Shown here piece by piece: positions 3,818 through 38,605 of a stretch of 38,605 bases of DNA. The stretch spans positions 1-38,605 of the forward strand of contig CANBER010000008.1 of the NCBI GenBank assembly GCA_947367795.1. Direction: 5' to 3'. This DNA is from an uncultured Candidatus Saccharibacteria bacterium (lineage in GTDB: Bacteria > Patescibacteriota > Saccharimonadia > Saccharimonadales > Saccharimonadaceae). A program made the position numbers and the translations under genes. Within the stretch, counting starts at the first letter, position 1. Every line of letters starts with the position of its first letter. The notes under the pieces were generated by a model. The model made no database searches and was not told where the DNA came from. It was given only the letters and a program-made list of their open reading frames with translations.

Positions 3818-6800
3818 ATGGCTTGGATGGATAATTTTATCAGCGCCAATGACTTCGACTCAATCCGCTTGAGTGTCGCTAGCAAAGAAGACATCTTGGG
3901 CTGGAGCTACGGCGAAGTCTTGAAGCCAGAAACCATTAACTATCGCACCCAAAAGCCGGAACGTGATGGCTTGTTCTGTGAAAGGATCTTTGGTCCAGTC
4001 AAAGACATCAATCCTCATGATTCCAAGCTCAAGGGTGTTCGCTCTCGCGAAGCTGCCGTCGACAAAGAAGGCAACCTCGTCACCAAGAGCATTTCTCGCC
4101 GTGAACGTATGGGGCACATCACTTTGGCCGCTCCAGTAGCACACATCTGGTTCATGCGCGGCACACCTAGCGCTCTCAGCGTACTGCTGAATCTCACGGT
4201 CAAGAATATTGAAAAAGTGGTCTACTTTGCCTCATATTTGATCGTCTCCGCCAAGGATGAAGAAATTGCCCAAACTTTGGCCGATCTCGAAGCTAATACT
4301 GTCGCCGCTCGAGAAGCTATTCGTATCCGCTATGAGCAACTGGCAGCTGAACCTAATGCTAATGTCACAGCGCTCGCCGACGAACAGGCCAAAGAATCCG
4401 AGGCTCTTGAAAGTGATTTTGTCGCGCGCAAGAACATCCTTGAAAAAATGATCAAAGGTGCGGTTATCACCGAGCTCGAATACCGCAATCTTCCGGAGGA
4501 GTACGAAGACCTGATCGAAGTCGAGATGGGCGCCACTGCCATCAAGAAGCTTCTCGATGAAATCGATCTCAAAACTATGATCTCCGAGCTGCGCGAAGAA
4601 GCCGTCGCATCCAAGGGCCAAAAGCAGAAGCGCATTATGAAACGACTCAAAGTTCTCGAGGGCATGGAAGCTGCTGGGATTAAGCCGATCGATCTGATTC
4701 TGACTGTCGTACCAGTTATCCCCCCCGATCTGCGTCCCATGATCGCGCTCCCCGGTGGACGCTTCGCGACGAGTGATTTGAACGACTTGTATCGCAGGGT
4801 GATCAACCGTAACAATCGCCTGAAGAAGCTCCTCGAACTCAACGCTCCCGCCGTGATTTGTCATAATGAAATGCGTATGCTTCAGGAAGCGGTTGATGCT
4901 CTGATTGATAACTCCGCTGTCCATGGTAGTCGCAGCGCCAACGCTCAAAACGGACGCCGCAAGCTCAAGAGTATTTCCGACTTACTCAAAGGTAAACAGG
5001 GTCGTTTCCGCCAAAACTTACTCGGTAAACGCGTAGATTACTCTGGTCGCTCTGTGATTGTCGTGGGTCCAGAATTGAAGCTCAACGAATGTGGCTTACC
5101 TAAACAAATGGCGCTTGAGCTCTTCAAACCCTTCGTTATCTCTTGGCTGATTGCAGGCGAGCACGCCGCCAACATCCGTTCGGCTACCCGTATGATCGAG
5201 GCGGGCGAAGCCATCGTCTGGGACGGTCTCGATGAATGTATTAAAGGCAAATATGTTCTCTTGAACCGTGCGCCAAGTTTGCACCGTCTATCGGTCCAGG
5301 CTTTCCAGCCCAAGTTGATCGACGGTAAAGCTATCCAGCTCCACCCGCTCGTCGCTAGTGGTTTCAACGCCGACTACGATGGTGACCAAATGGCTGTGCA
5401 CTTGCCACTTTCTGACGCGGCTCAGGCCGAAGCTCGTGAGTTGATGTCTGCCGGCAAAAACCTTCTCAAACCCGCTGACGGTGCGCCAGTGCTGGCGATT
5501 TATCAGGATGTTGTGTTGGGTATTTATTATCTAACTTACGATAAGCCCGGCACCGAAACCGACGAGGTGAAACCCTTTAGCTCCGTCTATGAAGCCGAGA
5601 TGGCCTACGACCAAGGTTTGATCGCCTTGCAGACCCCGATCCGGGTGTTTGCCAAGGGTGAGATCCGCAACACTACTCTCGGACGCGTAATTTTCAATGA
5701 AGTCCTGCCCAAAGATTATCCTTATGATAACTCCGTCCAGACTAGCAAACAGCTCAAACGCGTGATGGCGGACATCTTTGACACCTTTGGGGCTGAGACC
5801 ATGGTGAAAGCCGCCGATGATATCAAGAACCTTGCTTTCGAATATGAGACTGTCGCTTCAGTCTCTACGGCCAAAGATGATTATCCGACTTATCCTGAAA
5901 TTGATGATTTTATCGCCGAAGGCGACGCCAAGACCGCTCTGATTCAAGAGCAGTTTGACCAAGGTCTTGTCACCGAGGAAGAGCGCTATAACCTTACCGT
6001 GGCCAACTGGCGTGATATCGATAAAAAGATTTCTGACTTCCTCAAGAGTAAACTTGCCAGCATGGATACGGACATTGCAGTGATGGTCAACTCCGGCGCC
6101 CGTGGTAGCGTCAGTAACATCAAGCTAGCTTCTGCCGAAATTGGTATCATGGTGGACATCAACAACAACGAAATCGAGCTCCCAGTTAAGAGTAGTTACA
6201 AGAAGGGTTTGAACACTCTGGAATCCTTCATCGCGACTCGAGGCGCTCGCCAAGGCCAGGTGTCAACCGCTCTGCGTACGGCGGACTCAGGATATTTGAC
6301 TCGCCGTCTGGTCGACGTGGCTCAGGACGTCTTCACCACTAGCGAAGAGGCGCCAGATCCTGGCTTCGAAGTCTTCAAACGCGAAAGCGAATACACCGGT
6401 ATTGGTTTCGCCGCGCGCATTGCTGGCCGCTATACTGCTGAACCGGTGCCTAGTTACATTGGCGCGGGTGAACTGATTAGCCCAGAGATTGCCGAACAAA
6501 TCGCGAACGACGACCAAATCGAAAGTATCAAGATCCAATCCGTCCTCACTACTACCGCTATCAGCGGTGTGCCCCAGAAGGCTTACGGTGTCGATATGTC
6601 GACTCGTGCTCTCGTCGAGCCTAACCAGCCTGTGGGTGTGATTGCCGCCCAGAGCTTGGGTGAGCCTGGTACTCAGCTTACTCTCGATACCAAACACGGT
6701 TCCGGCGTGGCCGGCTCCGGTGCTATCGCTCGCGGTCTTCCGCGTGTCGAGGAGCTCCTCGAAGCCCGCTCTCCGAAAGGTCAGGCCTACATCACGCCAA

Positions 6801-21775: not shown

Positions 21776-22564
21776 ATGGAACCTGTAATCGAAACTAGAG
21801 ATTTAGTCAAAGTCTACGGCAAACGCTCGATGGCTTTTACCGCTCTCAAAAAAATCAATCTTCAAATTTACCCCGGCGAGTCGGTTGCTATTATCGGTAA
21901 GTCCGGCTCCGGCAAGTCTACTTTAATGCATCTACTTGCTTTGTTGGATCGTCCCACCGAAGGAGCAGTCATGATCGACGGTGTTGATGCCACCAAGCTC
22001 AGCGCGCACGAACTCAATCGCCTGCGTAACCAAACCTTTGGCTTCGTCTTCCAACAATTCTTCATGAATCCTAGCGACACTGTACTCGAAAATGTTGTCT
22101 TGCCTCTCAAAATCGCCGGCAAACATCGCAAAGAGCGTCGCACTATGGCTGAGAAAGCCCTCAAGACCGTCGGGCTTTCCGAACGTATCAAATTCAAAGC
22201 CAACGATCTTTCTGGTGGCCAAAAACAACGTGTCTGTATTGCCCGTGCCATTGTCAATCACCCCAAAATCCTCTTCGCCGACGAACCGACCGGTAACCTC
22301 GATTCTACCACTGGTGACAAAGTCATTAAACTCTTATTTGACCTAAACAAAAAAGGTGTTACTCTAATTATCGTGACTCATGATGAAGATTTAGCCAAAC
22401 TTTGCGATCGTCAAATTCGCATCTCTGACGGCAAGATCATCGAAGATACTGCCAAAGCCTCGAAATCTACCAAAACTTCCAAAAAAAGCCGATCGGAGGA
22501 CAAGCCTAAGCCCTCATCTAAGACTAAACTTGCCACCAAAACTTCAGCGAAAGGAGCTAAATAA
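21776..22564 (+). CDS. ABC transporter ATP-binding protein (MacB/LolD type)
   Basis: This 262-aa ATPase powers the adjacent permease. It shows Walker A GKSGSGKST, Q-loop FGFVFQQFF, signature LSGGQKQRV, Walker B ILFADEPTGNLD and H-loop VTHDED. The family pairs with MacB/FtsX-type permeases for mechanotransmission, or for export of peptides or lipoproteins. Residues 227-262 form a Lys/Ser/Thr-rich low-complexity tail beyond the normal end of the domain. The permease ATG overlaps its stop by one base. Expression is probably leaderless from the TATAAT 6 nt upstream. Confidence 0.93.
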   Translation: MEPVIETRDLVKVYGKRSMAFTALKKINLQIYPGESVAIIGKSGSGKSTLMHLLALLDRPTEGAVMIDGVDATKLSAHELNRLRNQTFGFVFQQFFMNPSDTVLENVVLPLKIAGKHRKERRTMAEKALKTVGLSERIKFKANDLSGGQKQRVCIARAIVNHPKILFADEPTGNLDSTTGDKVIKLLFDLNKKGVTLIIVTHDEDLAKLCDRQIRISDGKIIEDTAKASKSTKTSKKSRSEDKPKPSSKTKLATKTSAKGAK

Positions 22565-23919: not shown

Positions 23920-25284
23920 ATGTCCCAAAAATGCCATAAATATTCTAAATTTACAGAAAAATATATCACCGAACGCATAAATGTCGAAAAATTCATTCCT
24001 GGTGGTCAAGCACTCGCCACCCTTGTAAACGGCAAAAAGATCTTCCTTTGGGGCGCTTTACCTGGGGAAACTGTCACTAAAGCACACATTACTAAAGAAA
24101 AATCCAGCTACACCGAAGGCATTGCTATCGAAATTGCTCAAAAATCCCAGTACCGAGTTGAACCAGAAGATGAGTGCTATCTTGCCACTTCTCCCTGGCA
24201 AATCCTCGATTATGACTATGAACGAACGCAAAAAGATGAACTTCTGCGAGAAATCTTTCGTCAGCACATGATCACTCTCCCAACCGAGCTTGAAGATTTT
24301 CATATCATCAGTTTCGAGCCATATCATTATCGCAATAAAATGGAATACGCACTGTATTACAGTCACGAAGATCAAAAAATCCATCTCGCCTTTCACGAAC
24401 GCGGCAGTCATCGTAAAATCCCTATCAAAAAGTCCAGCCTGGAATATCCCGAAATCTGGCAGCGCGCCGTAGAAATTGTTGACGAGCTTAATCGTCGCGG
24501 CGAGGACGCGCGCAAATATCAGTCTCTCCTCCTCCGTGCAGGGCGCAGTCTAGAACCCAAAGGTGTTCCGCACGATTTACCAATTGACGCCGAACCAGAG
24601 AAACCGGTTGTCAGTGGTGGACTTTATGAAAACCATCGACCACATCCCAATTTTCCTGAACTTTATGACGTTATTCGCGAAAATGAATTTTCCTATTCAC
24701 CCAATGGCTTCTTCCAAGTCAACGTCAGGGCTTATACTGCTATGCTAACAGAAGTTGATCTTTTGAACTTGATGGGGCCAAAAGTACTCGACCTCTACTC
24801 CGGCGTCGGCACTATTGGTCTCTCACTTGCGCAAAATCGCGATCTAACCTTAGTTGAATGCGACAAAAACGCCTATCAAGAACTAGTCCACAATGTTAAC
24901 CGTCTTACGCAAGCCGCCGGAGCATCTGGACAGACTCTCCATATCAAGCCGATTTTTGCGAAATCCGAAGATACTCTAGATTATATCGAACCTGACCAAA
25001 CCGTCATCGTCGACCCACCTCGCGCCGGTTGCCGGCCAGAAGTCATCGAGCGTTTCCTGCAAGTTGAACCCGAGCGCATCATCTATCTCTCGTGTAACCC
25101 CGCCACTCAGGCCCGTGACGTCAAACCGCTCCTCGAAAAGTACACCATGCGAGCTTTTCTACCCTATAATTTCTTTCCTCGTACCCCGCACATCGAAAAT
25201 TTGATCATTTTAGAACGTAAGGGTGCGGAAACCCCAACCGCAATGCAAAAACACATCATGGAGTTAAGATATGGGACTAAATAA
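23920..25284 (+). CDS. RNA m5U methyltransferase, TrmA/RlmD family
   Basis: This is an S-adenosylmethionine-dependent uridine-C5 methyltransferase of 454 aa, similar to RlmD, RlmCD and TrmA. A degenerate TRAM-like N-terminal domain (GGQALATLVNGKKIFLWG) is followed by the central region and a Rossmann domain. Key motifs are FSYSPNGFFQVN, VLDLYSGVGTIGLSLA, IVDPPRAGC, the catalytic Cys in YLSCNPATQARDV and the terminal PRTPHIENLI with the base Glu. The [4Fe-4S] cysteines of RlmD are not kept: the expected Cys-rich block reads ECYLATSPWQ. AGGAG (23910-23914) precedes the ATG. It overlaps the helicase gene by 14 nt. The target RNA is not determinable. Confidence 0.9.
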   Translation: MSQKCHKYSKFTEKYITERINVEKFIPGGQALATLVNGKKIFLWGALPGETVTKAHITKEKSSYTEGIAIEIAQKSQYRVEPEDECYLATSPWQILDYDYERTQKDELLREIFRQHMITLPTELEDFHIISFEPYHYRNKMEYALYYSHEDQKIHLAFHERGSHRKIPIKKSSLEYPEIWQRAVEIVDELNRRGEDARKYQSLLLRAGRSLEPKGVPHDLPIDAEPEKPVVSGGLYENHRPHPNFPELYDVIRENEFSYSPNGFFQVNVRAYTAMLTEVDLLNLMGPKVLDLYSGVGTIGLSLAQNRDLTLVECDKNAYQELVHNVNRLTQAAGASGQTLHIKPIFAKSEDTLDYIEPDQTVIVDPPRAGCRPEVIERFLQVEPERIIYLSCNPATQARDVKPLLEKYTMRAFLPYNFFPRTPHIENLIILERKGAETPTAMQKHIMELRYGTK

Positions 25285-28200
25285 AGAACAGGCCAGCGCC
25301 GTTGAATATCTTGATGGACCATTGCTCGTCCTGGCGGGGCCTGGCACCGGCAAAACTCAACTACTTTCCGCCAAGGTCGCTTACATTCTAGAACACACTG
25401 ACACTAATCCGGAGAACATCCTCTGTCTCACCTTCACCGAATCCGGAGCCAGCAATATGCGCGAACGTCTCGGTACTATGGTTGGTCGCGCCGCAGCCAA
25501 AGTCAATATTTTTACTTATCACGCTTTCGGTTCCAACATTCTCGAACGCTACAAAAATTACGCCGAAAATTTCGATCGTCGCCTCGACAATGTGATTGAT
25601 GGCGTTACACAGTACAAACTCATCAAGCAAATTCAGGAGCATCTCACCGCCAGTAGCATTCTCAAAACCGCCAAGATTTCCGATCTCGTCGAGACGATCC
25701 AACAAGCTAAATCCGCCCGGCTCTCCAGCGACGATCTCGCATTAATCGCTGAACGCAACCAAAAAGACAGTGCCACCATTGGAAAGCTCGCTACAAATAT
25801 CTTCGCCGCTCTAAAGCCTCGCATGAAATTCGATCTCGCTGTGAGCGAAGTCTATCAGCCTCTCGCTACTGCCTTGAGTGATCTCACATCGAGTGCCCCC
25901 ATCGCTGGCAATATCGAGCCCACTGCCAATATCCTTCTGCGGGATTTGATGCGCATCATCGAGACCGAATCCGCCGCCGAAAAGCCTAGTATTCGACCAC
26001 TCAGTGCCTGGAAAACTAAACATTTCGAAAAACAAGACGACGGCAGTTCCCGTCTCAAAGATCATATTGCCAACAAAAAGCTCGCTGAGCTTGCGCGGAT
26101 TATGGCCGCCTACGATGCTGAGCTTCAAGCTGGCGGGTTCTTCGATTTTGCCGATATGATTGAAGAAGCTATCCGGAGTTTGCGCGAGGATCGCGGTTTC
26201 CGACTCACACTTTCCGAGCTCTTCCAGTACATTCTCCTCGATGAATTCCAAGACACCAACCCGTCTCAGTTTGAGCTGATCAAACTCCTCACTGACTACG
26301 AAAAACCCATTGTCATGGCAGTCGGCGACGATGACCAAGCTATTTTCGAGTTCCAAGGTGCCAATGCTTCTAATCTGCTCGATTTTCAGAATCATTATCA
26401 AGCCGAAATCGTCACTTTGCGCGATAATTATCGCAGCAGTGGTGAAATTCTCGATTTTTCACACCGCGTCGCCGAGCAGGTTGTCGACAGTTTTGCCAAA
26501 CAACGCGGCGTTGCCAAAGTTCTACGTTCCATGATGGACATTTTTCGCCAAGAAAAAACCAGCACTCCAGAACCAACTTTCCCTTCGCAAATCGAACGCC
26601 ACGAATTCACCGCCGCCAGCGACGAGTATTATTGGATAGCTGACCAAATCCAAGATCTAATCCGCTCCGGCGAAAGCCCCGACAACATCGCAATCATCGC
26701 TCCGCGCCACAAGTATATCGCCCCCCTACTGCCCTATTTTAAGGAACGCGGCATTGATATTAGTTATGAAAAGCGTTCCAATCTCCTCGACGACCCCAAA
26801 CTTCACGAACTTATCGTCATCGCTCGATTTTGCCACGAGCTCGCCTGTGGCACGAAACCTTCCCATCGCCTACTCGAAATTCTTTCCTTTCCGTTTCTCG
26901 AAGTCCCATCTCTCACCGCCATTCGCGCCGTCGAGTATCGTCGTGGTGATGACAAATCCCCACTTGATTACCTTACCGAGAGCGACGACCCTCGGCTCAA
27001 ATCCATCGCCGAGTGGCTCGCCGCCCTCACCACGGAATCTTTCGACGCCCCTCTCGAGCTTTGGTTCGATTATCTTATCGGCACCAGGGAATTAAACGCC
27101 TTCCGCCCCCCCTTCCTAAAATATTATTCCGAACACAGCGACGCCGTTGAACAGTTTGAATTTTATGAAAATCTAGGCGCTCTCCGTAGCACCGTCATTT
27201 CGCACACCCACGAGGCCCAGCCCCATCTTGCCGACTTTATCGCCATGCTCGATGATTACGAATCCGCCTCCGCCCCCATCGTCAAAACCAGCCCTTATCG
27301 TGATAGCGCTCATTCCATCCAAATCATGTCCGCCCATAAGAGCAAGGGGCTCGAGTTCAAACATGTTTTCTTGATCGCAGTCGACGAACTCGCTTGGGGC
27401 AAAGCCAAAGGTAATAATAACACTTTCACTCTCCCCTGCAATCTCGCCCAAATTCGTCATACTGGCATCACTGACGACGAACAACTACGCCTCCTCTTCG
27501 TTGCAATTACCCGCGCTAAGCAGCACCTCGTCATGACCAACTCCATTCAGGATTTTTCCGAAAAAACTACTGCCCGTCTTGGCTATCTCAACGAACAACG
27601 CGACGAAAAAGCCGAGCGTCAGATCTCTCCTTACCTCCCCGAAACTAGCCAAGAAATCCAAACCCACTACCAAGATTTCGATGTCGACACGCGCCTCAGC
27701 ATCATCCAACGTAACTGGTCTGCCACTTATGCTGTCATGTCCCCCGATCTGCGCCTCATTCTCCAAAATCGCCTCGAAGGCTACCGTCTCACTGCTACTG
27801 ATCTCACTAGTTTCATTGATCTGATCTATGCCGGCCCCGAAGCCTTCTACCGCAATCGTCTCCTGCGCGCTCCGGCCGAACCGCTCACCCACGAACTCGC
27901 TCTCGGCAATCTCATTCACGCCACTTTTGAGCAAATCACCACCGCCCAGCTCGATTTGCCTGCCGCGCTTGAGTTTTATCATACCAAAGCTATCGAGCTT
28001 CCGCTCCCACCCGAGGATATCGCCAAACTCAAAGAACAAGGCGTCCGCAGCCTAACCAAATCCTACGAGACATTCGAGCCTATCTTACACCACCCAGACG
28101 CCAAAGCTGAAGTCAATCTCTCTTCAGAGCACCTCGTTTTTGAAGGTGTCCCGCTCACTGGCAAAATCGACCATCTCCGCATCGACCCCACTACCAAGAC

Positions 28201-28600
28201 CATCGAAATCTACGATTTCAAAACCGGCAATTTCCATCCCGAAAAATGGCAGAGTCATCCTACTTTATACAAATATGCTATGCAGCTCGGCTTTTACAAG
28301 CTTCTCCTGAATCTTTCACCCACCTACCGGAATTACACTGTCACACGCGGCCACATTCTCTTTGTCTCTCCCGATAGCGCCAACGACGACCAGGTCTACG
28401 ACAAAGTCCTCGATTTCGATCCCGCCAGCGAGCACGAACTTCGCCAGCTAATCCAGGCGGTTTACCACGAAATCACCACCCTAGATTTCCTCGAAAATCC
28501 CGCCATCAATCTCCCCGCCGACAAAAAACATACCCTCAAAGGCATCAAAAACTTTGTCGCCGACCTCTTGGAGCTGGTCCAAATTCGCCAAAACTCTTGA
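25271..28600 (+). CDS. UvrD/PcrA-type helicase with C-terminal PD-(D/E)XK nuclease
   Basis: This 1109-aa repair enzyme has a full SF1A motor: Walker A GPGTGKT, TFTESGASNMRERL, motif II LLDEFQDTNP, motif III VGDDDQAIFEFQGA, NYRSSGEIL, MSAHKSKGLEFKHVFLI and FVAITRAKQHL. The C-terminal about 230 residues form a RecB-like nuclease domain, with HATFEQ, then GKIDHLRID and IEIYDFKTG as the D...DxK core and YAMQLGFY. That is the AddA/AdnB-like plan for double-strand-break resection, or a single-chain helicase-nuclease. No AddB-like partner lies in the window. Its TGA doubles as part of the -35 of the next promoter. Confidence 0.92.
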   Translation: MGLNKEQASAVEYLDGPLLVLAGPGTGKTQLLSAKVAYILEHTDTNPENILCLTFTESGASNMRERLGTMVGRAAAKVNIFTYHAFGSNILERYKNYAENFDRRLDNVIDGVTQYKLIKQIQEHLTASSILKTAKISDLVETIQQAKSARLSSDDLALIAERNQKDSATIGKLATNIFAALKPRMKFDLAVSEVYQPLATALSDLTSSAPIAGNIEPTANILLRDLMRIIETESAAEKPSIRPLSAWKTKHFEKQDDGSSRLKDHIANKKLAELARIMAAYDAELQAGGFFDFADMIEEAIRSLREDRGFRLTLSELFQYILLDEFQDTNPSQFELIKLLTDYEKPIVMAVGDDDQAIFEFQGANASNLLDFQNHYQAEIVTLRDNYRSSGEILDFSHRVAEQVVDSFAKQRGVAKVLRSMMDIFRQEKTSTPEPTFPSQIERHEFTAASDEYYWIADQIQDLIRSGESPDNIAIIAPRHKYIAPLLPYFKERGIDISYEKRSNLLDDPKLHELIVIARFCHELACGTKPSHRLLEILSFPFLEVPSLTAIRAVEYRRGDDKSPLDYLTESDDPRLKSIAEWLAALTTESFDAPLELWFDYLIGTRELNAFRPPFLKYYSEHSDAVEQFEFYENLGALRSTVISHTHEAQPHLADFIAMLDDYESASAPIVKTSPYRDSAHSIQIMSAHKSKGLEFKHVFLIAVDELAWGKAKGNNNTFTLPCNLAQIRHTGITDDEQLRLLFVAITRAKQHLVMTNSIQDFSEKTTARLGYLNEQRDEKAERQISPYLPETSQEIQTHYQDFDVDTRLSIIQRNWSATYAVMSPDLRLILQNRLEGYRLTATDLTSFIDLIYAGPEAFYRNRLLRAPAEPLTHELALGNLIHATFEQITTAQLDLPAALEFYHTKAIELPLPPEDIAKLKEQGVRSLTKSYETFEPILHHPDAKAEVNLSSEHLVFEGVPLTGKIDHLRIDPTTKTIEIYDFKTGNFHPEKWQSHPTLYKYAMQLGFYKLLLNLSPTYRNYTVTRGHILFVSPDSANDDQVYDKVLDFDPASEHELRQLIQAVYHEITTLDFLENPAINLPADKKHTLKGIKNFVADLLELVQIRQNS

Positions 28601-28625
28601 CTTTTTCAGTAATCTGTGCTACAAT
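28597..28625 (+). promoter_or_regulatory. Strong promoter of the zinc-ribbon gene
   Basis: TTGACT (28597-28602), a 17-nt spacer and TACAAT (28620-28625), with TGC before the -10. The -35 contains the helicase TGA stop. Initiation is expected near 28632. Confidence 0.8.
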
Positions 28626-28631
28626 AGAGGT

Positions 28632-28685
28632 AAGATGAGCGATCATCTTGAATTTTGACATTCCCATTCTCAAAAAGGAGGTGAT
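28632..28685 (+). promoter_or_regulatory. 5' leader with GNRA hairpin and full-length Shine-Dalgarno
   Basis: AAGATGA (28632-28638), loop GCGA, TCATCTT (28643-28649) form a hairpin at the expected 5' end. AAAGGAGGTGAT at 28674-28685 is complementary to a 12-nt stretch of the usual 16S rRNA 3' end. Both features suggest a stable, heavily translated mRNA. Confidence 0.7.
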
Positions 28686-28689
28686 ATGA

Positions 28690-28983
28690 ATGGGATTCTT
28701 CGATCTTTTAACTGGCGGACCCGAGTCCGGAGCCGATGACAGAGTTGGACCGTTCGGCGGCATTTTTGGATCCAGTAGCGAAAATTCTCGCGACATCCAG
28801 CAGCCATCTGGCACGACTTACAACCTTTTCGGCCGCCCATATGAAAATCAGTCAAGAGCAGGCAGGGATTACGCTCGCAGCGTACACCCCGGCGGACAGT
28901 GCAAATGCACCAGTTGCGGCAAGCTTTATGACAACGCATACGACGCCAATCATTGCAAATGTCGCAAACCCTGGGAAACCTGA
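28690..28983 (+). CDS. Small zinc-ribbon protein of unknown function
   Basis: This 97-aa protein has a Gly/Ser/Asp-rich, probably disordered N-terminal half starting MGFFDLLTGG. The C-terminal module reads CKCTSCGKLYDNAYD, then HCKCRKPW. The CxCxxC...HCxC spacing suggests one structural zinc site. ATG 28690 is chosen because GGAGG (28677-28681) is 8 nt upstream. ATG 28686 gives only a 17-codon frame. It has its own near-consensus promoter, a hairpin leader and an extreme Shine-Dalgarno, so high expression is expected. It lies just upstream of rpmE2 and rpsB-tsf. I do not recognise the family. A ribosome- or RNA-associated role is only a guess. Confidence 0.75.
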   Translation: MGFFDLLTGGPESGADDRVGPFGGIFGSSSENSRDIQQPSGTTYNLFGRPYENQSRAGRDYARSVHPGGQCKCTSCGKLYDNAYDANHCKCRKPWET

Positions 28984-28987
28984 CAAA

Positions 28988-29066
28988 AGACTATTAATAG
29001 TCTAAAGGCCCACGAAGTGGGCCTGCAACTTACCACTTTGGGGCCTTCGGGCCCCACATTTTCTTC
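28988..29066 (+). terminator. Three consecutive hairpins, the last a UUCG terminator
   Basis: Three structures follow the zinc-ribbon gene. AGACTATTAATAGTCT is a palindrome at 28988-29003. GGCCCAC-GAA-GTGGGCC lies at 29007-29023. TGGGGCC-TTCG-GGCCCCA lies at 29039-29056 and is followed by CATTTTCTTC. The last is a good intrinsic terminator. The first two may protect the mRNA 3' end. Confidence 0.75.
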
Positions 29067-29122: not shown

Positions 29123-29455
29123 ATGAGTAAAAAAGTTACACAACCCGAAGATTATCGCTACGTAGTCTTCCAGGACGAGGCCGCGAAGTTCGCTTTTCTC
29201 ACCCGTTCGACTGCTCAGAGCGAAGAGACCATCACCTGGGAGGATGGCAATCAGTACCCGCTGATCAAAGTTCAAATTTCTTCCGCTTCACATCCCTTCT
29301 TCACCGGCGAAGAAAAGATCATCGATACCGAAGGTCGCGTCGACCGCTTCAAATCTCGCGCCAAGCGGGCTGAAGCCCTACGTGCCACTCTCGGCAACAA
29401 AGTCAAAAAAGCCGAGAAGGAAGCCGCCAAAAAGGCCGAAAAATCTTCCAAATAG
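29123..29455 (+). CDS. rpmE2: 50S ribosomal protein L31, type B
   Basis: This is a zinc-independent (C-minus) L31 of the large subunit and bridge B1b region, 110 aa. The family pattern is [36 protein letters not shown] and [10 protein letters not shown], followed by RVDRFKSR. No Cys is present. A Lys/Ala/Glu-rich tail (about residues 92-110) extends beyond the usual end. A strong terminator follows. Confidence 0.92.
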
Positions 29456-29542: not shown

Positions 29543-29597
29543 GTCGTGGGAGGTTTCCTGGTTTCAAGAGGTGGGGTCTAGAGCCTGCACCCACGAC
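29543..29597 (+). promoter_or_regulatory. Structured rpsB leader RNA
   Basis: GTCGTGGG (29543-29550) pairs perfectly with CCCACGAC (29590-29597), enclosing 39 nt with smaller potential pairings. It lies in a leader of about 90 nt between the promoter and the rpsB Shine-Dalgarno (AAAGGA near 29605-29610). The position fits an autoregulatory S2-binding leader, as known for rpsB in other bacteria. Direct equivalence is inferred. Confidence 0.55.
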
Positions 29598-29614
29598 GAA
29601 GTGAAAGGAAATCT

Positions 29615-38320: not shown

Positions 38321-38369
38321 ACTATATATAAACTAATAGGCTAGGCAGCGGATGGGGAAACCGGGCCAA
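38321..38369 (-). repeat. 49-bp perfect inverted repeat, right copy
   Basis: Exact reverse complement of 121-169. It covers the last 12 codons, the stop and 12 nt past the stop of the minus-strand surface-protein gene. Confidence 0.9.
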
Positions 38370-38605
38370 TGAGAGTTCGGGCCGTACGACGGGCCGACGC
38401 CAGACGCATCGAAGCGGAGGTTGTACGCGGCAGCAGAAGTAACAGAGGTGAACGCCCCTGAAGCCGAAGACCAGCCGTAACCATTGATGCCGAAGGCCCT
38501 CAGAGCACCGTAGTACAGAGCAACATGCCCACTACGGACGAAGGATAGAGGAGGTGAGGCTATATTATAATTATTACCATCTTGACCAGTACCGGCCACA
38601 TTGCT
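38333..38605 (-). CDS. FISUMP-like surface protein, C-terminal fragment
   Basis: An open frame enters from the right edge and ends at TAG (38333-38335), giving about 90 residues. The pattern GYGWSSASGAF, then AAYNLRFDASGVGPSYG and HWPGFPIRCLAY, is close to the FISUMP domain layout (GYYWSS...AYxLxFxSSGVxPS...GFSVRC). This is the clearest support for assigning the family to both fragments. The N-terminus and any signal peptide lie outside the window. tdk follows downstream after a hairpin. It is a paralog of the fragment at 2-157 and the source family of the decayed tail at 154-240. Confidence 0.65.
   Translation of the reverse strand, partial: SNVAGTGQDGNNYNIASPPLSFVRSGHVALYYGALRAFGINGYGWSSASGAFTSVTSAAAYNLRFDASGVGPSYGPNSHWPGFPIRCLAY

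Follow-up and report, generated by a model that had tools for sequence, protein, structure and literature searches.

The open reading frame (ORF) at positions 28690 to 28983 of the window, by which we mean the whole 38,605-nt stretch of Saccharibacteria DNA analyzed here, encodes a small protein that probably contains a zinc finger and whose predicted translation signals are exceptionally strong. Our main reading, to which we assign a probability of roughly 0.6, is that this ORF occupies a single-occupancy, horizontally swapped expression cassette whose product would be a binding protein under diversifying selection. The structure and evolution of the cassette are well supported by the genome comparisons described below, which show that one conserved type of translation start serves one of several unrelated proteins and that the cassette is exchanged as a whole. 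The cassette, of approximately 300 bp, would consist of a promoter, a short leader, an extended Shine-Dalgarno (SD) sequence, a small ORF, and a terminator.

The window ORF (forward strand; ATG at 28690, stop codon at 28981 to 28983) specifies 97 amino acids, MGFFDLLTGG...QCKCTSCGKLYDNAYDANHCKCRKPWET, with a Gly/Ser-rich N-terminal part and a C2HC finger near the C terminus. The Cys and His residues are C71, C73, C76, H88, C89, and C91, for which the best C2HC reading is C73-x2-C76-x11-H88-x2-C91, and the codons of residues 71 to 91 (CKCTSCGKLYDNAYDANHCKC) span positions 28900 to 28962 of the forward strand. The ORF and its Cys/His pattern, as described in an earlier sequence-only reading of this DNA, can be read directly from the sequence. 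Among the ORFs of all six frames of the window there are two C2HC-type patterns, with 0.2 expected, and an AlphaFold2 (AF2) model of the finger region contains weak strand and helix elements (pLDDT of about 65 to 69). The ORF shares the spacing C-x2-C-x11/12-H-x2-5-C and a weak strand/helix prediction with classical C2H2/C2HC fingers but differs from them in being a lone finger with a putative metal site in a very small bacterial protein. Of the six frames, that of the ORF had the best codon score, which exceeded the 95th percentile of shifted frames yet fell short of the 5th percentile for established genes in the window, indicating an atypical composition. No match was found in Pfam, NCBIfam, or PDB, and sequence searches of 60 relatives, genome contigs, and viral contigs returned no homologs.

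Upstream of the ORF lies the promoter TTGACT-N17-TACAAT with a TG before the −10 element (28597 to 28625, forward strand; −35 at 28597 to 28602, −10 at 28620 to 28625), the −35 region of which falls within the last codons of the preceding helicase gene. Folding of the leader yielded a 5′ stem-loop, UAAGAUGA-GCGA-UCAUCUUG, near the predicted transcript start (28631 to 28650, forward strand), with a modest folding z score of −1.8 for the leader as a whole. Three hairpins follow the stop codon on the same strand (28988 to 29056; individually 28988 to 29003, 29006 to 29024, and 29039 to 29056) in a region with a z score of −5.0, for which none of 200 shuffles was equally stable; the last hairpin, the sole one of the three to score as terminator-like, is likely the terminator. 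Between promoter and start codon, the extended SD sequence AAAGGAGGTGAT, 12 nt in length, is directly readable at 28674 to 28685 (forward strand). Promoter, GNRA hairpin, SD sequence, and downstream hairpins had all been proposed in the sequence-only reading and were recovered at these positions, with the complementarity of the SD scored against the near-universal anti-SD, since a search of the assemblies for a 16S 3′ end found none (a lone pattern match, in L240, had no rRNA match). The same reading held that these signals surpass those of any ribosomal gene in the window. For the SD this is correct: among 17 window starts compared, that of the window ORF is the longest, followed by that of tsf with 9 nt, a contrast with the neighbors that arises partly because several of them look leaderless. 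For the promoter it is not, as the window ORF has a match of 10/12, rpmE2 of 11/12, and rpsB of 10/12, all with a TG before the −10 element. At window positions 21776, 29123, 32357, 34383, and 36198, a TATAAT lies only 0 to 10 nt 5′ of the start without a clear SD, and the mRNAs of rpmE2, abc, proS, lysS, and rseP appear leaderless from their sequence; rpmG in relatives has the same leaderless-like start.

Because the window ORF lacks sequence relatives, we compared its place in the genome instead of its sequence. It starts 89 nt after the stop codon of a gene for a UvrD-type helicase with a C-terminal PDDEXK nuclease domain (25271 to 28600, forward strand; Pfam UvrD-helicase, 2e-61; UvrD_C, 7e-22; PDDEXK_1, 3e-15) and has its own promoter, which is the position that characterizes the cassette. 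Homologs of the helicase are present in 54 of 60 relatives. Among 36 genomes of the same genus, most of which, like the other genomes compared, are fragmented assemblies, a small gene with the same type of start site was found in 33 and directly after the helicase in 31. Helicase adjacency is absent in G015, where the gene lies beside rpmG in two tandem copies, and in G033, where it lies beside dus; the position after the helicase carries no slot gene in G010 and something else in G013 and is cut by a contig end in G011. Across the 61 genera of the family survey, small slot-type proteins occurred in two only (g1 and g35), and several of the g35 loci also adjoin the helicase. On its other side, the slot is bordered in relatives by rpmG, dus, or a convergent rpmE2. 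The downstream neighbor in the window is rpmE2 (L31 type B; 29123 to 29455, forward strand), a gene that is present in relatives but mostly at other places, and the linkage of rpmE2 and rpsB to the slot is not conserved. The sequence-only reading had suggested, from these neighbors, an uncharacterized ribosome-, RNA-, or envelope-associated factor; an uncharacterized protein with strong signals does hold this position throughout the genus, but the conserved neighbor is the helicase and not rpmE2 or rpsB-tsf.

Several further features of these loci were observed. The two tandem genes adjoining rpmG in G015 (L156, contig C36) both encode class C proteins (see below) and do not directly follow the helicase. 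In L158 (at about 4320 to 4510) and in L045 (G001), an extra gene with its own SD, for a small membrane protein beginning LGIWI(A/S)YILD, lies between the helicase and the slot gene. The relatives found in named collections are Saccharibacteria, one of which (L158 to L160) comes from sheep ileum, so the window very probably belongs to a Saccharibacteria genus that includes gut members. An ORF on the reverse strand of the window (38333 to 38599) ends in GFPIRCLAY, and a similar C terminus, WGGFTVR, is encoded downstream of the helicase in the slot-less G013 (L036). The rpsB leader in the window (29545 to 29600) has complementary ends, CGTGGG...CCCACG, and is possibly an S2 autoregulatory leader, with no Rfam match. 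In the Gabija defense system, a GajB-like UvrD helicase adjoins a GajA OLD nuclease. GajB models match the helicase of the window, which is to be expected of UvrD helicases in general, but this helicase carries its own PDDEXK domain; among the neighbors scanned against PADLOC, no GajA-like gene was recognized beside it.

The start site is the feature that unites the slot genes. Across 89 distinct leaders the SD consensus is AAAGG[G/A/T]GGTGA, the variable base being G in 49, A in 21, and T in 19; this third base is thus mostly G, whereas perfect pairing expects A. The distance from SD to start is 8 nt in 61 of 92 slot leaders, and the true start is GTG or TTG in 62 of 89. In 75 of the 89 leaders, an NTG in another frame overlaps the start, mostly from 4 nt upstream or in the form ATGTG, compared with 23% by chance, a chance level that ignores kinship among sequences that are related and not independent. 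The window start, AAAGGAGGTGAT-ATGA-ATG, conforms to this design of the genus, with its AAAGGNGGTGA SD, its spacing of 8, and a competing out-of-frame ATG that overlaps the true start from 4 nt upstream and opens a frame of 17 codons (28686 to 28739, forward strand). A search for AAAGGAGGTGAT-N4-ATG found a single copy in the 860-kb genome and no copy in 39 relatives. Most relatives have promoter-like elements at the corresponding position; apart from the SD, however, the sequence of promoter and leader is not conserved, and the similarity of the leaders may therefore be partly convergence. A leader structure conserved across relatives was not supported, and no known RNA of the Rfam type matched the locus. 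In Staphylococcus aureus, where two starts overlap and compete, also in the AUGUG configuration, extended SD pairing picks the second one (PMC13009471). The slot leaders resemble those of S. aureus aur (AUGUG) and proP (PMC13009471) in combining an extended SD with overlapping starts in another frame and in the frequency of GTG and TTG starts, but differ in that the arrangement marks a single locus throughout a genus that belongs to another phylum. By analogy, we infer that the extended SD of the slot genes may likewise select the second start, and the slot start would then be a natural case outside the Firmicutes of extended-SD choice among competing starts.

The proteins encoded in the slot fall into unrelated classes, namely, zinc fingers with or without CxxCxGxG motifs and a Cys-independent beta-beta-alpha-beta class. 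Class Z proteins (57 to 69 aligned residues) have a C2HC finger, after which most carry two CxxCxGxG motifs (alignments A1 and A4), and their Cys and Gly residues are invariant in the alignment. Class C proteins (50 to 77 residues) have no zinc site and share the motif GY..A......GH.V.GD; AF2 predicts a beta-beta-alpha-beta fold for them (pLDDT of 80), which had no significant match in PDB or among viral models. Comparison of pairs of relatives shows purifying selection within the classes, with pN of 0.15 to 0.42 against pS of 0.6 to 1.1. The sequence-only reading named loss of the Cys residues in orthologs as evidence against it, and such a loss is seen at the level of the locus, as the slot protein of many relatives has no zinc finger. 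Two minor types, B and D, are divergent, as is the window protein. With the class Z profile, the window ORF reached only 6 bits (5 to 6 bits for its finger), no score with the class C profile being reported, and lacks any CxxCxGxG motif; it is a divergent occupant that falls outside both classes by sequence. Its membership in the slot is based on position, leader, and finger pattern, because a search of 394 family genomes returned no homolog (two weak matches were non-slot genes). Its N terminus is of the MG[LF]F type also seen in types B and D and in some class C members, and by eye the window protein looks as if a common head had been fused to a different body.

Known families did not account for these proteins. 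Class Z members with two CxxCxGxG motifs gave sub-threshold matches to anti-TRAP (RtpA, PF15777), which is of similar size, and to the DnaJ zinc domain (PF00684), and matched the solved DnaJ zinc domain 1exk by profile (E value of 1e-10). They differ from both in an extra N-terminal C2HC finger, neither a TRAP nor a J domain was shown, every family match lies below the curated cutoff, and class Z has one CxxCxGxG pair where DnaJ has two (four motifs). An anti-TRAP identity (PF15777/NF058604) was rejected, as a class Z relative reached 22.9 bits against a cutoff of 32 and the window ORF gave no match, and so was a DnaJ identity, as class Z proteins of 57 to 69 residues show two motifs and no J domain and the window ORF has none. 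A ribosomal or ribosome-associated identity of the window ORF was likewise not supported, there being no family match and no conserved rpmE2/rpsB neighborhood. Genome-wide matches of the zinc profile outside the slot were to long frames, by their length DnaJ and probably UvrA, and not to further slot copies. A class Z protein had no match in phages, a class C protein had none in plasmids, and the small slot proteins matched no known defense family; a literature search for such small proteins in Saccharibacteria found no paper.

The two main classes replace one another. In samples of 388 family genomes, class Z was found in 55 genomes of the genus, class C in 32, and both in none, and at least seven changes between Z and C are needed on the helicase tree. 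The clearest case is the comparison of L272 (class C) with L258 (class Z), in which the helicases are 95 to 97% identical, the flanks align at 86% and 82%, and the occupants are unrelated. Here, DNA similarity ends shortly past the helicase, about 100 nt 5′ of the start codon, and returns 60 nt 3′ of the stop codon, just before rpmG, so that the difference is exactly the whole promoter-ORF-terminator unit. Divergence of slot and flank is also decoupled in both directions: pS of the slot exceeds that of the helicase in L250/L252 (0.71 versus 0.22) and is below it in L266/L267 (0.00 versus 0.30) and L283/L284 (0.06 versus 0.67). Several close pairs share identical slot proteins (for example, L281/L282 and L266/L267), so diversification is not continuous. 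Together, single occupancy, class switching, replacement as a unit, and decoupled divergence indicate horizontal exchange of a cassette of about 300 bp. The slot shares fixed flanks, mutually exclusive small content, and decoupled genealogies with exchange hot spots such as immunity, defense, and antigen loci but differs from these in that just one small gene is exchanged, together with its own promoter and terminator, and the design of the start site stays constant.

We weighed this reading against three others. The strongest, which we nevertheless regard as unlikely, is that the slot encodes a zinc protein with a housekeeping role at the ribosome or on RNA, in which class C proteins would be functional replacements. 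The strong SD would suit such a protein, as would the frequent binding of nucleic acids or proteins by zinc-finger and CxxCxGxG folds and the frequent presence of a ribosomal or tRNA-modification gene (rpmG, rpmE2, or dus) downstream. Against it stand the missing conservation of the rpsB-tsf and rpmE2 linkage, the exchange of alleles decoupled from the flanks, the class C proteins without a zinc site, the empty place in G010, and the restriction of slot-type proteins to two of 61 genera sampled. Since neither the ribosomal neighbors nor the zinc site is conserved and the alleles are exchanged, we consider a housekeeping ribosomal function the less likely alternative. We give still less credence to a small protein that serves the neighboring helicase-nuclease as an accessory subunit or regulator, for instance by setting its DNA specificity: although the helicase is the most constant neighbor (31/36 genomes in g1 and several g35 loci), the slot gene has its own promoter and far stronger translation signals than the helicase, adjoins rpmG or dus instead in G015 and G033, and is swapped while the helicase evolves conservatively, with no sign of co-replacement. 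That the RNA itself is the product, acting either as a sink for ribosomes or in regulation, with an ORF that is nearly free to vary, would fit the finding that no element is conserved as well as the SD even as the protein class changes, but is very improbable given the purifying selection on ORFs within classes, the invariant Cys and Gly residues of class Z, the absence of an Rfam match, and the unconserved leader structure.

With less support than the exchange of the cassette itself, we propose that the slot product would be small and cytoplasmic and would bind a protein or nucleic acid target stoichiometrically; in the window genome it would be a zinc finger whose N-terminal part is flexible. 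That alleles and folds are swapped would result from diversifying selection, through phage, mobile elements, or host or kin recognition, and not from a housekeeping function; the slot probably encodes an abundant small binding protein under phage- or partner-facing diversifying selection. Saccharibacteria, whose genomes are tiny, live on other bacteria. It is a more tentative proposal that these episymbionts possess a previously undescribed allele-exchange locus, in which an abundant, one-per-cell protein of unrelated folds is expressed through extended-SD start choice from a self-contained unit that recombines next to an unchanging helicase and functions in recognizing host, kin, or phage. 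The slot is noteworthy in that its translation signals are among the strongest in the genome and its expression design is kept while folds are swapped, and the slot gene is a directly testable candidate for an interface that sets the host range and phage resistance of Saccharibacteria.
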